This document shows positions 655 to 13,608 of a DNA stretch of 13,608 bases, one piece after another (within the stretch, counting starts at the first letter, position 1; every line of letters starts with the position of its first letter). The notes beneath the pieces were generated by a model. The model was not told the DNA's origin and did no database searches. It saw nothing but the letters and a program-made list of their open reading frames with translations. The position numbers were made by a program, and so were the translations under genes. Origin of the DNA: an uncultured Clostridia bacterium (GTDB taxonomy: Bacteria; Bacillota_A; Clostridia; Oscillospirales; Oscillospiraceae); the NCBI GenBank assembly GCA_947167435.1, contig CAMVIC010000014.1, positions 1 to 13,608 on the forward strand. Direction: 5' to 3'.

Positions 655-1158
655 TCAGACCGTATCCAGGCGGCCATAGCCGTCCCAGGCAAACAGATGC
701 CGGACTCCCGCGTCCCCGTGACAGGTGAGAATCTCGGCCAGATAAAACGTATGGTCGCCGGCCTCGGCCGTGCTGACCAGGCGGCATTCGAAGGAGACGC
801 GGCTGCCGGAGACAAGGCTGGCCGGAATCACGGAGGCCGCCTCCAGCGGGATATCGAACTCCGCTGCCTTGTCGTGGTCGCGGCCGGAGCAGCGCCCGCA
901 GGCAAGGGCCGCGCTGCGCAGCTCCTCTCCCACAACGTTCAGCGTGAACACGCCGTTTTTCTGAATCAGGGAGCCGCTCAGGCCCTTTTTGCTCAGGCAC
1001 GCGCCCAGCATGGGCGGATGGTTGGACAGATAGGTCCACCAGGACACCGCCATCAGATTATCGCTGCCGTCTTCCCGCCGGGCGGAGAGCAGCGCAAAAG
1101 GGGCAGGCGCAGTCAGGCGCTGTGCCTGCCCCAGGGTGATTTCCGTCATGCCGCTCAT
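655..1158 (-). CDS. Flavin reductase-like domain protein (FMN-binding split barrel)
   Basis: A 167-residue single-domain protein, the usual size of the family. The N-terminal half reads like a flavin reductase domain: PFALLSARREDGSDNLMAVSWW at about 20-41, where such proteins bind FMN, then PPMLGACLSKKG (48-59) and a conserved GVFTLNVV segment (69-76). The C-terminal half has FECRLVS and FYLAEI strands. Such proteins bind FMN and either transfer hydride from NAD(P)H to free flavin or act as small flavoproteins in anaerobes. The partner cannot be read from sequence. Its ATG overlaps the stop of the upstream TIM-barrel gene in an ATGA, so translation is probably coupled. No strong Shine-Dalgarno is seen beyond GAAGG. 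The Etf operon upstream is also flavin-based, which may or may not be coincidence. Confidence 0.82.
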   Translation of the reverse strand: MSGMTEITLGQAQRLTAPAPFALLSARREDGSDNLMAVSWWTYLSNHPPMLGACLSKKGLSGSLIQKNGVFTLNVVGEELRSAALACGRCSGRDHDKAAEFDIPLEAASVIPASLVSGSRVSFECRLVSTAEAGDHTFYLAEILTCHGDAGVRHLFAWDGYGRLDTV

Positions 1159-1829
1159 TTCGCCTTCATGTAGTAGGCCACGGCAACCAGATTGTCGCGG
1201 AAGCTGCCGGTGGGGACAAACTTCTTCTCGAACAGGGCGGAGCCCATGGTGAAGGTCCAGGGTCCGATGTCGAACATGGTGTCGATCCGCTTGAAGCTGT
1301 TGATGCTGCCGGCGATGCAGATCTTGGCAGGGACGGCGGCGCAGAACTCATAGGCCAGCTTTTCGCCGTCGATCACGTGGCGATAGGCCAGAATGTCGAA
1401 GCCCTTGATGCCCTTGTCCATAAGCTCCTTCGCGTTTTCGATGATCTCCTCGTTGCTGCCCTCCAGAATGCTGGGGCTGCCGGAGACCTTGCCGACGAAG
1501 GGCAGATACTCCATGCCGTTGTCCCTGAGGAGCTTGGCGACGGAGTCATAGTACAGCGTGCCCATCAGGTAATCAAAGCCGCAGTCAATGGCGGTCTGGG
1601 CGCCGTCGAGGCAGCTGGCCTCGTCGTAGGTGACAACCTCAAGGAAGGTGGTTTTGCCGGCGGCCTTCATGGCGGCAACCAGCGCCTTCATCTGGTCCTT
1701 GGGAAGGCCCACGTTTTTGAAGCCCCAGTACTTGACCTCTTCCAGGTCCTTGCACTGCTCGAAGACCTCGGCCGCGTCCTTTACGGTCACGTCGTGGTGG
1801 GTCAGCATGATGATGATGTCGGGTCTCAT
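1155..1829 (-). CDS. Uncharacterised TIM-barrel (phosphate-binding beta/alpha barrel) protein
   Basis: 224 residues that parse as repeated beta-alpha units. Strands end in IIIMLTHHD (N-terminus), KYWGFKNVG (33-41), TTFLEVV, DYLMGTLYY, YLPFVGKVSG, GFDILAYR and KICIAGSINS. The C-terminal FTMGSALFEKKF is the Gly/Ser phosphate-binding loop typical of HisA/HisF-, KDPG aldolase- and PcrB-like barrels. Charged residues at strand ends (H11, H12, K38, E64 and the Lys of VGKV) are catalytic candidates. I cannot name the reaction: aldolase, isomerase or prenyl/phosphate transferase are all possible. The start ATG is preceded by AGGAGGAAGAATC, an excellent ribosome binding site. The stop overlaps the flavin reductase start by 4 nt. 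The glycerol-1-phosphate dehydrogenase-like gene two places downstream hints at a phosphorylated triose or polyol substrate, which is inference only. Confidence 0.75.
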   Translation of the reverse strand: MRPDIIIMLTHHDVTVKDAAEVFEQCKDLEEVKYWGFKNVGLPKDQMKALVAAMKAAGKTTFLEVVTYDEASCLDGAQTAIDCGFDYLMGTLYYDSVAKLLRDNGMEYLPFVGKVSGSPSILEGSNEEIIENAKELMDKGIKGFDILAYRHVIDGEKLAYEFCAAVPAKICIAGSINSFKRIDTMFDIGPWTFTMGSALFEKKFVPTGSFRDNLVAVAYYMKAK

Positions 1830-10285: not shown

Positions 10286-10306
10286 GCGCCCGCCTGAGAA
10301 GGGCGC
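10286..10306. other. Short GC-rich hairpin after the esterase gene
   Basis: GCGCCC (10286-10291) pairs with GGGCGC (10301-10306) around a 9-nt loop, 37 nt after the esterase stop. Only GGTATCAAAAAG follows on the plus strand, so no U-tract supports termination. It may be a weak terminator or a 3' stabiliser. Confidence 0.3.
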
Positions 10307-10345
10307 GGTATCAAAAAGCGTACCAGGTATGAAGAAACTGCGTAC

Positions 10346-10373
10346 TTGATTTCAAAAACGGATATGGTACAAT
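10346..10373 (+). promoter_or_regulatory. Promoter of the sngABC operon
   Basis: TTGATT (10346-10351), a 16-nt spacer and TACAAT (10368-10373), with TG one base before the -10 (10365-10366), an extended -10 feature. The predicted start is near 10380, about 40 nt before sngA. The AT-rich patch stands out from its GC-rich surroundings. Confidence 0.65.
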
Positions 10374-10418
10374 AAATATACTTGAAAAGAAAAAACGTGG
10401 CGGAAGGAGGTGCCGGAG

Positions 10419-12245
10419 ATGCGGATGGCGGAGCTGATCGACTATGCCAGAGAGAAATATCAGATTGAGGAACAGCACAAGTGGGAAGGATTCCCCGGCT
10501 TTTCCGTGCTCAACCATCCGCAGACGGGGAAATGGGTCGCCCTGCTTATGCGGCAGTGGGACATGGAGACAGGCACAGAGCTGGAACGCTGCGACCTGAA
10601 GTGCGGCGGCAGCAGCCTGCTGCGTTTCTCCCGGCCATACCTTTCGGCGCCGGTGCGCATGCCGGGGAAAAGGTGGATCAATATCACCTTTGACGAGAGT
10701 ACGGAACCGGACGTGGTCTTTCGGCTTTTCGATCAGGCGGTCGCGGAGGGAAGGGAACACGGCTATACCGTCGTTCTGGGCTCGGCGCCGTCAGAGGGGG
10801 GCGGACACTGGCAGGAAACGCCGCTGCCCTTTTCCGGGCGCACTGACCGCACGGAGAGGGAGCAGCTGCCGGAAAAGCTGCGGGAAATGCGCCGCCTGTA
10901 CGAATACGGCAGCCAATCCGCCGAGGCCAGAGCCGAAAATTTCTTCCGTCAGGCGGTATTCATGGAGGACTACGAAGACGACGCTCCCTGGCCGGGGGGC
11001 GATTTCGTCCGCTATTTTCCCACCTATCAGGACCTGAGCGCAAGGCAGCTTCGCGGATACTTCACCTGGCGCGCCGGGGTGCGCAGGGGCGTGTTTCAGC
11101 CCATCGCCACCTCAGCGGCTTATCTCTATCTCTACGAGCTGCTCAACGGCGTCGGTGCCTGCTCGCCGGAGGATGCGCTGGAAAAGCTGCGGGCGTTTGA
11201 GCAGGGCTATCTGGATTCCGGCATCGGCGATCAGCGGATGCGGCGGAACCTCCGCCGCTGGATGCTGGAGTATGCCGTGATCAACGACCTGCCGCCCTCT
11301 CTTGCCCGGGAATATGCCGAGCCGGAAATGACGGCGCGGGACGAGGCTCTTGCCGCACTGCGAAGGCCGGAGGACTGCCCGGACGAGGAGGTCTTCCGGG
11401 CTCTCTGCCTGCTGGGCGGGAAAAAGATTGCCGAATCGCCGGTCGTCAGCCGGGACCCCGCGCGGGGACAGCACCTGTTCAGCGAGGCCTGGCGCTCCGC
11501 CGCGGCCTATCGCTGGCAGGACAAGAAGCTGTTTGCCCTCTGCTTCGGAGAAAAGAAGACCCGGCGCTGGGCGCCGCTTTCCAACGCCGTCTATTATGAG
11601 AAAAAGCGACAGGAAGACAGAACCTATGTGCTGAACGAATGCCGCAGCTTTCGCTGCAGGGACGGGCTTTGGACGGTTCGCGCCTTTGAGAGTCTGTCCT
11701 GGGACAGGGCCAGAATGCAGGGCTTTTTGCATGAGGCGGACGCCAGACTGCGCCGCTATCTGAAAACGGGGCGCTATCTCAGAGAGAAGCCGGAGGATGC
11801 CTGGGCAATCCCCTTCATCGACGCGGTCATCGATGCGGACAGGAAGGCCGCGATCGAAGCCGCTAGGCCCAAAATCACCATCGACCTGTCCGAGTTGGAG
11901 CAGATTCGCCGGGACGCGGCGGGCACGCGGGACAGCCTGCTCACTGAGGAAGAGCTGGATGAGTACGAAGAGCCCGCCCCGGCGCCGGAGGAGGAAAAAG
12001 CGGCCGAGCTTCCGCTGGATTCTGTACAGGTCCGGATTCTGCGGGGACTTTTGCAGGGCGAAGACGTGACGGCGATTCTCAGGGCCAATCATCTGATGCC
12101 GTCCATGACGGCGGATTTTATCAACGAAGCATTGTATGACGAGATCGGCGATACGGTTCTGGCATGTGAGGGGGACCGGCTGACCCTGATCGAGGACTAT
12201 ATCGAAGACCTGGCACAGTTGCTTGGAGGAACAAGGCATGGATGA
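10419..12245 (+). CDS. sngA: TerB_N/TerB_C protein with N-terminal MmcQ/YjbR-like domain, Shango component SngA
   Basis: 608 residues from ATG at 10419, set 8 nt after a perfect AAGGAGG; a GTG three codons upstream overlaps that site and is unlikely. Residues 1-110 resemble MmcQ/YjbR proteins (MRMAELIDYAREKYQIEE, then PGKRWINITFD and a final helix). A TerB_N region follows at about 170-265: AENFFRQAVFMEDYEDDAPW, YFPTYQDLSARQLRGYFTWRA and TSAAYLYLYELLNGVG. The C-terminal TerB_C-type region (about 483-608) has PKITIDLSELEQIRRDA, an acidic linker (509-529), and MPSMTADFINEALYDEIGDTVL. TerB proteins are linked to tellurite and stress systems and occur in phage defence. Here the gene overlaps a P-loop ATPase gene and heads a trio like Shango, where the TerB protein is SngA. 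Its biochemical role is not known to me. There is no signal peptide, so it is cytosolic. Confidence 0.82.
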   Translation: MRMAELIDYAREKYQIEEQHKWEGFPGFSVLNHPQTGKWVALLMRQWDMETGTELERCDLKCGGSSLLRFSRPYLSAPVRMPGKRWINITFDESTEPDVVFRLFDQAVAEGREHGYTVVLGSAPSEGGGHWQETPLPFSGRTDRTEREQLPEKLREMRRLYEYGSQSAEARAENFFRQAVFMEDYEDDAPWPGGDFVRYFPTYQDLSARQLRGYFTWRAGVRRGVFQPIATSAAYLYLYELLNGVGACSPEDALEKLRAFEQGYLDSGIGDQRMRRNLRRWMLEYAVINDLPPSLAREYAEPEMTARDEALAALRRPEDCPDEEVFRALCLLGGKKIAESPVVSRDPARGQHLFSEAWRSAAAYRWQDKKLFALCFGEKKTRRWAPLSNAVYYEKKRQEDRTYVLNECRSFRCRDGLWTVRAFESLSWDRARMQGFLHEADARLRRYLKTGRYLREKPEDAWAIPFIDAVIDADRKAAIEAARPKITIDLSELEQIRRDAAGTRDSLLTEEELDEYEEPAPAPEEEKAAELPLDSVQVRILRGLLQGEDVTAILRANHLMPSMTADFINEALYDEIGDTVLACEGDRLTLIEDYIEDLAQLLGGTRHG

Positions 12246-13566
12246 ACACAGAAAGGTACCCAGGCGCATCGCGCAGACGGTGCTGAATTCCCTGAAGGGC
12301 GGCGTGGTGCCCCGCATCGGGCTGCCCTATATTACGGTGGGCCGGAAAAACGAGATCGAGGCGCTGCTGCACGATGTGGATATCATCGCGGAGGGCGGCG
12401 CGTCCTTCCGCTTTATTGTGGGCCGCTACGGCAGCGGCAAGAGCTTTCTGCTGCAGACCATCCGCAACTACGTGATGGACCGGGGCTTTATCGTGGCGGA
12501 CGCGGACCTCTCACCGGAACGGCGGCTGCAGGGAACAAAGGGACAGGGCCTGGCCACCTACCGGGAGCTGATCTCCAATCTGTCCACCAAAACAAAGCCG
12601 GAGGGCGGCGCGCTGACCCTGATTCTGGACCGCTGGATCAGCGCGGTACAGAACGAGGCCATGCAGGAGACGGGACTCGGCCCCGACGATCCCGCCCTGG
12701 CTTCCGCCACGGACAGAAAAATCTTCGCGGTGACGGCCGACCTCAGCGAGCTGGTCCACGGCTTTGAGTTTGCAAGGCTCCTGTCCGCCTATTACCGGGC
12801 CTATCTCGGCGGCGACGATGAGACGAAGGCGAAGGTGGTACGCTGGTTTCGGGGCGAATACGCCCTGAAGAGCGAGGCCAGGGAAGCCCTGGGCGTCAAC
12901 ATCATCATCACCGACGACGACTGGTACGACTATCTGAAGCTCTTTGCCGCCTTCTTCCGCATGGCGGGCTATACGGGCATGTTCATTATGATCGACGAGC
13001 TGGTGAACATCTATAAGGTTCCGAACGCCATCACCCGACAGTATAACTATGAGAAAATCCTGACCATGTATAACGACACCCTCCAGGGCAAGGCCAGGTA
13101 TCTGGGCATCCTTATGGGCGCCACGCCCCAGGCCCTGGAGGACAAGCGGCGGGGTATCTACAGCTACGAGGCGCTGCGCTCCCGCCTGGCGGAGGGGCGC
13201 TTCTCCAGGCCGGGCGCCAGGGACCTGCTGGCGCCGGTGATCCGCTTGGAGCCGCTGACCGCCGAGGAGATGCTGGTGCTGTGCGAAAAGCTTGCGGAAA
13301 TGCACGCGGGGCTCTACGGCTATGCCCGCAGCGTCACCACGCAGGACCTGGCGGATTTCATCAGGATCGAATACGGGCGCATCGGCGCGGATCAGAACAT
13401 CACGCCCCGGGAAGTGATCCGGGATTTCATCGAGCTGCTGGACCTGCTGTACCAGAATCCGAAGATGCACATTGCCGAGCTGCTTTCCTCCGAGGAATTC
13501 AGCTACGCCAAATCGGAAGCCGTCTCGGATGAGACGGACGCGGGCTTTGCGGAGTTTACGATATGA
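12238..13566 (+). CDS. sngB: BrxC/BrxD-like P-loop ATPase, Shango component SngB
   Basis: 442 residues from ATG at 12238, preceded by GGAGGA with a 7-nt gap; an in-frame TTG at 12223 would overlap this site. Walker A is GRYGSGKS (62-69, K68) and Walker B is MFIMIDEL (248-255, D253 and E254). The protein starts with a conserved entry IGLPYITVGRKNEIEALL (27-44) and ends with an ATPase lid and helical region containing NITPREVIRDFIELLDLL (387-404). The pattern fits the BREX system ATP-binding family (PF10923, formerly DUF2791), which includes BrxD and the Shango ATPase. It probably powers or gates the helicase encoded next. It overlaps sngA by 8 nt and the third gene by an ATGA, so all three are translationally coupled. 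No other BREX gene is present, which argues for Shango rather than BREX. Confidence 0.85.
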   Translation: MDEHRKVPRRIAQTVLNSLKGGVVPRIGLPYITVGRKNEIEALLHDVDIIAEGGASFRFIVGRYGSGKSFLLQTIRNYVMDRGFIVADADLSPERRLQGTKGQGLATYRELISNLSTKTKPEGGALTLILDRWISAVQNEAMQETGLGPDDPALASATDRKIFAVTADLSELVHGFEFARLLSAYYRAYLGGDDETKAKVVRWFRGEYALKSEAREALGVNIIITDDDWYDYLKLFAAFFRMAGYTGMFIMIDELVNIYKVPNAITRQYNYEKILTMYNDTLQGKARYLGILMGATPQALEDKRRGIYSYEALRSRLAEGRFSRPGARDLLAPVIRLEPLTAEEMLVLCEKLAEMHAGLYGYARSVTTQDLADFIRIEYGRIGADQNITPREVIRDFIELLDLLYQNPKMHIAELLSSEEFSYAKSEAVSDETDAGFAEFTI

Positions 13567-13608
13567 ATGTGTATGAGCGCTATGCGCCTTTTATTCAGAA
13601 CTATATCT
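13563..13608 (+). CDS. sngC: N-terminus of the third operon gene, expected SngC-type SF2 helicase (cut by window end)
   Basis: Only 15 codons are visible, MNVYERYAPFIQNYI, starting in an ATGA overlap with the sngB stop. The motif of a hydrophobic 'PFIQNYI' close to the start is what I would expect ahead of the first motif of Lhr/BrxHI-type DEAD/DEAH helicases that follow BrxD-like ATPases. The identification rests mostly on gene order: TerB protein, ATPase, helicase. Fifteen residues cannot prove it. Confidence 0.5.
   Translation, partial: MNVYERYAPFIQNYI

Follow-up and report, generated by a model that had tools for sequence, protein, structure and literature searches.

What kind of system is encoded at the end of contig CAMVIC010000014.1 from an uncultured Clostridia bacterium, and how might it work? 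The stretch of DNA that we analysed (13,608 nucleotides, hereafter the window) closes with 3.3 kb that contain, all on the forward strand, the complete genes sngA (10419-12245, 608 amino acids) and sngB (12238-13566, 442 amino acids) and the start of a third gene (13563-13608), of which 15 codons precede the window end. A sequence-only reading had described three coupled genes behind one promoter and proposed that they belong to the antiphage system Shango. The coupling is borne out by the common orientation and by overlaps of 8 bases between sngA and sngB and 4 bases (ATGA) between sngB and the third open reading frame (ORF), which starts at 13563, and one sigma-70-like site was seen upstream, at 10346-10373. 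For sngA, the ATG at 10419 is the better start because the GTG at 10410 sits on the ribosome-binding GGAGG. The best explanation of the locus, to which we assign a probability of roughly 0.7, is a gut (mostly rumen) variant of Shango whose SngA carries a YjbR head, with the mechanism and regulation proposed below. It is a variant of a known defence system and not a new kind, and its role in defence would follow from that of Shango systems tested elsewhere.

Membership of the Shango lineage, as a sngA-sngB-sngC operon, is almost certain. The PADLOC SngA model (PDLC03958) matched window SngA with 265 bits over profile positions 12-527 of 528, and the SngB model (PDLC03959) matched nearly end to end with 637 bits, compared with 165 bits for the PADLOC BrxD model; among 14 control genomes, matches to the SngA and SngB models occurred in none and in one, respectively. 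The sequence-only reading had taken 10419-12245 to encode a TerB_N/TerB_C protein and had named two outcomes that would refute it, a missing match to these profiles or a third gene devoid of helicase motifs; neither was encountered. Both profiles matched above their Pfam cut-offs, TerB_N at residues 140-351 (10836-11471, forward strand; 89.6 bits, cut-off 25) and TerB_C at residues 473-598 (76.5 bits, cut-off 26.3). SngB, described there as a BrxC/BrxD-like ATPase with intact Walker motifs, is indeed spanned by BrxC_BrxD (PF10923) at residues 7-419 (570.5 bits, cut-off 22.2), and both motifs of this AAA+ ATPase were located on the forward strand: Walker A (GRYGSGKS) at 12421-12444, where the pattern G[RK]YGSGKS recurs in 56 of 59 complete relatives, and the Walker B stretch (FIMIDE) at 12982-12999. 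Our initial Walker B pattern fitted 17 of the 59 SngB proteins, the residues before DE being variable, and no conclusion was drawn from it.

A scan of species genomes returned 338 SngB relatives, and we retained the 80 best loci. Judging by record titles, most of these stem from metagenome-assembled genomes of rumen or other gut origin; their organism labels span several phyla, these labels being bin assignments that may be wrong. In front of sngB, sngA is present in 75 of the 76 loci that have 1 kb of sequence upstream, and 72 of the 76 that have as much downstream carry sngC no more than 600 bases after sngB. The 15 residues of the window's third gene (MNVYERYAPFIQNYI) resemble the SngC starts of these relatives: counted from the first codon, at least 9 positions agree in 70 of the 80 ORFs taken downstream of sngB, and 56 of these 70 have the same 4-base overlap; four others become similar after extra residues and six are dissimilar. 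From these 15 codons, the third gene looks like the start of sngC. The full-length third gene of one relative, locus L001, encodes a superfamily 2 (SF2) helicase with DEAD and Helicase_C domains that scored 939 bits with the PADLOC SngC model, in keeping with the order sngA, sngB, sngC proposed by the earlier reading, which proved correct in each part testable within the window. The 59 complete SngC proteins retain the helicase motifs TASGKT (59/59), DEIH (57/59), SAT (59/59) and motif VI (59/59); the SngC model also finds matches in 13 of the 14 control genomes, as expected of a helicase model. SngC has been placed with BrxHI, DruE and DpdJ in a potentially distinct clade of antiphage SF2 helicases (PMC12278908).

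Published Shango (SngABC; PADLOC PDLC03958-03960), known from Pseudomonas aeruginosa PA14 and Escherichia coli, has the gene order of the window operon; its SngA and SngB models cover most of the window proteins, and SngC is seen in relatives (tested in L001). Five operons on plasmids, from E. coli, Sulfitobacter, Azospirillum and two Paenibacillus, matched the same SngA and SngB models and are annotated in this order as well. PMC10221251 gives the Sulfitobacter operon as Shango, at identical coordinates, and Shango in P. aeruginosa PAO1 has been reported to lower plaquing 10-100-fold and to protect in liquid culture (PMC10250203). Window SngB is 38.7-54.5% identical to the listed plasmid members, to which this comparison was confined. 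The closest is on plasmid NZ_CP045296.1 of Paenibacillus cellulositrophicus (SngB 54.5% identical), which keeps the SngABC order. Window SngA differs from published Shango by its YjbR head, and an HxlR-linked element in front of the operon is a further difference.

The same ATPase and helicase families occur in BREX, where BrxD is an ORC-Cdc6-type AAA+ protein and BrxHI has an Lhr-like C-terminal domain (PMC12839542). SngB belongs to the PF10923 family and matches the BrxD model, and L001 SngC also matches BrxHI (410 bits), as would be expected if the operon were a fragment or relative of BREX carrying a BrxD ATPase and a BrxHI helicase, as in type 2 BREX. Both BREX models nevertheless score well below their Shango counterparts, and SngB reached only 165.5 bits against the NCBIfam BrxD equivalog NF033438 (cut-off 350), which places it outside BREX BrxD. 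We rejected a BREX fragment on these scores, from scans that covered nine of the window's proteins with Pfam and two with PADLOC, and regard such an origin as highly improbable.

Within Shango, the window operon stands out by its SngA. Residues 1-112 (10419-10754, forward strand) form a head that belongs to the YjbR/MmcQ family (PF04237) by both profile and fold match. It shares its fold with E. coli YjbR (2fki) and P. syringae PSPTO_3016 (2kfp/3h9x), the latter also matching by profile; whereas those two proteins are free-standing, the domain is here fused to TerB_N/TerB_C. Double-wing DNA binding has been predicted for YjbR in PMC7641849, which also mentions a YjbR-TerB fusion, citing Anantharaman 2012. 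The extra head of SngA is probably DNA-binding; that it serves instead as a CyaY/frataxin-like metal- or protein-binding module seems to us a possibility with the odds leaning clearly against it. The head has been gained or lost several times among the relatives. Mapped onto the tree, the YjbR label requires 10 changes compared with a mean of 12 after shuffling, and 30-43 of 500 shuffles gave a value as low, meaning that it is hardly more clustered than by chance.

The remainder of SngA offered few structural clues. A model of its core (residues 150-608) found no PDB match at E<=0.001, which does not imply a new fold, and gave only weak winged-helix matches at its C-terminal end. Likewise, when its profile was compared with SngA of the E. 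coli plasmid, the alignment was confined to a C-terminal stretch and had a probability of 6%. The TerB domain PF05099, listed for Shango in a table of PMC10952713, is matched by SngA from the plasmids of E. coli, Sulfitobacter and Azospirillum. In window SngA, TerB_N and TerB_C are present and PF05099 gave no match at E<=1; none was found either in SngA of L007 and L023 or in the whole genomes of L001 and L023. Two other genomes scanned do have PF05099 matches, in ORFs of 87-291 amino acids, shorter than SngA. The PADLOC SngA match does not require PF05099, and it is the lack of a match to this listed domain that leads us to call the operon a variant. SngA of the P. cellulositrophicus plasmid (573 amino acids) resembles window SngA in having no PF05099 match and differs from it in having no YjbR profile match. 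In one relative (L009:7987-9321), SngA ends early, at 445 amino acids, before the matching stretch finishes, and looks disrupted.

The three proteins do not all evolve at the same rate. Across the 59 loci with three complete genes, mean pairwise identity was 50% for SngA, 85% for SngB and 83% for SngC; since the loci were chosen by SngB similarity, the SngB value is biased upward, whereas SngC, which was no selection criterion, is almost as conserved. SngA was more diverged than SngB in all 1711 of 1711 pairs, with a median distance ratio of 3.3, compared with 1.1 for SngC relative to SngB. In the 22 pairs closest in SngB and of equal SngB length, nonsynonymous divergence (dN) of SngA was 2.7 to 15 times that of SngB and synonymous divergence (dS) 0.9 to 2.9 times. 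An excess in dN without a matching excess in dS indicates that the SngA difference is mainly protein change and not gene replacement. As SngA dN/dS stayed below 1 in all 22 pairs, this points to accelerated or relaxed evolution and not to positive selection.

A recent review (PMC12926258, 2026) lists the mechanism of Shango as unknown. We tentatively suggest, at somewhat less than even odds, that SngA, SngB and SngC form a DNA-surveillance machine. SngA, with its double-wing YjbR head and winged-helix-like tail, would be the DNA-reading subunit that confers specificity; SngB, an Orc/BrxD-like AAA+ ATPase, would assemble or load the complex; and SngC, an Lhr/BrxHI-like SF2 helicase, would translocate on and disrupt invading DNA or replication intermediates. 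Apart from restriction- and Cas3-named matches to the helicase core, scans of window SngA and SngB and of L001 SngC returned no nuclease family, so the DNA would have to be destroyed either by unwinding alone or with the help of a partner nuclease. The Sulfitobacter plasmid operon hints that a nuclease can be added: genes for a PD-(D/E)XK nuclease and a UvrD helicase directly follow its sngC (L092:6015-8739).

Alternatively, the operon might be a Ter-type chromosomal system for DNA repair or stress response, its fast SngA reflecting relaxed constraint. The relatives mostly lie among ordinary metabolic genes, the SngA dN/dS values are compatible with such a role, and one genome (G001) has a second, diverged SngB-SngC pair with no adjacent SngA match beside ordinary genes, together with a lone SngA-like gene on another contig (L089:5445-9025 and L090:7288-8985). 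Control by an HxlR-type regulator, discussed below, would also fit a response to chemical stress. Yet among 151 genomes of one order, a strong full SngC (880 bits or more) was confined to 3, including the query's own, from which the system appears accessory. Of 72,556 plasmid records, 690 carry SngB relatives and 542 of these 690 are typed as conjugative, and the other genes of the window are mostly not found beside related operons. Since related systems also protect against phage (PMC10250203), we consider the Ter-type reading unlikely and favour a Shango defence operon. Carriage by phages themselves was rejected, as no SngB relative was present among 50,697 phage records and none was confirmed in viral contigs.

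How would such an operon be controlled? The promoter-like site upstream of sngA (10346-10373, forward strand) consists of TTGATT, 16 bases and TACAAT, with a TG before the -10 box (extended -10). One such site was found compared with 0.2 +/- 0.5 in shuffles, and most of the 18 loci that we aligned with the window, a set picked largely for having an HxlR gene, have kept it. A 48-base element, GGTATCA-N6-GTACCANGTAY-N7-CTGCGTACTTGATTTCA (10307-10354, forward strand), runs into the -35 box and is a candidate operator; its spacing to the -10 box is kept, and it is conserved in HxlR-bearing relatives. Its pattern occurs once in the window and in none of 200 shuffles. With a matrix built free of the window, the element scored 68.5, the next best window site scoring -5.9.

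The HxlR genes in question follow sngC. A gene whose product is 78-100% identical to the HxlR-family protein of L005 was present at this position in 15 of 63 classifiable loci (a further fifteen were cut and two unclassifiable), and the two of the 15 that were scanned matched PF01638 with 96 bits. When its nearest start codon is taken, the gene shares 8-35 bases with the end of sngC in 13 of these 15 loci, and in L040 and L003 it begins 1 and 140 bases after sngC, respectively. The element precedes the operon in 14 of 14 HxlR loci with visible upstream DNA and in 3 of 45 loci that lack HxlR (Fisher p 5e-11, kinship not taken into account). In view of the window's score, we predict an HxlR gene just past the window end. 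Beyond the HxlR gene, L001 carries a DUF5131 gene (L001:13975-14850; PF07505, 139.7 bits), and DNA homology past sngC reaches this gene in L011, L012, L018, L032 and L040. In another relative (L022:9849-10001), SngB and SngC have no SngA upstream, and a weak copy of the element lies about 150 bases before sngB.

The exact core pattern was found at 10 sites in 9 of 13 genomes, all 10 within Shango loci. Eight of them precede sngA, and the other two stand in front of an esterase gene in L001 and of an esterase remnant in L018. In L001, the second copy lies between a divergent HxlR-like stretch (opposite strand, 4376-4197) and a PF00756 esterase gene (L001:4197-5173); in L018, it lies between an opposite-strand HxlR-like stretch in two pieces (4961-4837) and the esterase remnant (L018:4837-5183). 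The adjoining HxlR-like stretches fit an element that goes with a divergent regulator gene. The window's own esterase, just upstream of sngA, has no copy at the score used, and the exact pattern is absent from the viral contigs.

The element could also mark the left boundary of a mobile cassette. Of the 43 alignments that have their left edge between 10200 and 10450, 11 show DNA homology to relatives from 10300-10307 onwards, and L002 has a serine recombinase gene just upstream. Against a boundary speak the overlap with the promoter at a kept spacing, the esterase-side copies next to divergent HxlR-like stretches, as for a shared operator, and the way in which the element tracks the HxlR gene; no search for a matching right end was made. 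We judge a cassette edge to be improbable. That 10307-10354 is instead an operator, where an HxlR-type repressor predicted beyond the window would bind over the -35 box and keep expression low, seems to us about evenly poised.

Several observations weigh against the overall explanation of a regulated, YjbR-headed gut Shango variant. Both sngC and any HxlR gene fall outside the window. DNA binding by YjbR is itself a prediction, and the head cannot be essential, because 14 SngA genes among the relatives do without it. The element matrix was built from HxlR loci and scored leave-one-out. On well-supported branches there were only 3 independent contrasts between element and HxlR gene, about 2 in favour and none opposing, and a kinship-corrected test was not significant. 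With one mismatch allowed, the core occurred at 15 sites in the 13 genomes compared with 16 for the reversed control, which leaves only the strict core pattern informative. The surroundings are metabolic: upstream, Pfam identified an esterase, an oxidase linked to flavin adenine dinucleotide, the alpha and beta subunits of electron transfer flavoprotein and a flavin reductase, and a further gene resembles a TRAP-type transporter by eye. The nearest ORFs of at least 120 amino acids and less than 2400 bases on each side of the loci, some of which may not be genes, were likewise mixed and showed little if any defence-island signal, as none of the 25 defence models among the matches listed hit more than 2 of 102 of them, in a comparison that had no control set. 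We also know of no phage test of a gut member, and no search by host was made.

For this flanking set, 102 of 115 ORFs were scanned, leaving out 12 HxlR genes and one near-duplicate, and 70 PADLOC models matched at least one of them at 1e-10. Two ORFs that lie among the metabolic genes of the window (1155-1829 and 1929-2426) had no Pfam match above the cut-off. At the DNA level, the neighbourhood is not shared by relatives beyond the esterase, which recurs about 3 kb upstream in L001, and one short transporter match in L005. Of the window's other genes, only the esterase and distant relatives of a few transporter and electron transfer flavoprotein genes were found beside related operons.

Some related operons are interrupted or accompanied by other genes. 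In L047 (3783-6810), a restriction-modification set is nested within the Shango operon: sngB and sngC are separated by genes for two DNA methylases (PF01555) and for an endonuclease of the EcoRI family (PF02963, 501 bits). A RhuM/Fic-like gene splits sngB from sngC in L056 (3690-4619), as does an opposite-strand gene in L075 (2985-4295) that by eye is like histidinol dehydrogenase. Just upstream of the operon in L015 (6810-8015) is a gene with a Card1-like endonuclease domain of the CRISPR-associated type.

A more elaborate and, in our estimate, rather doubtful proposal is that these operons constitute a distinct gut subtype of Shango. In it, a fast-evolving SngA would act in recognition, with an often gained and lost, DNA-reading double-wing YjbR head replacing the TerB domain, and SngBC would be a near-invariant motor. 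In part of the lineage, a fourth-gene HxlR repressor acting on a GTAC-rich operator over the operon's own promoter would silence the operon until released by a chemical or infection signal. Together, the rate contrast and the swappable head suggest that contact with the phage or its DNA is made by SngA and that SngBC is the conserved engine. The HxlR-linked element, in turn, would provide a direct means of studying how Shango operons are switched off and on.

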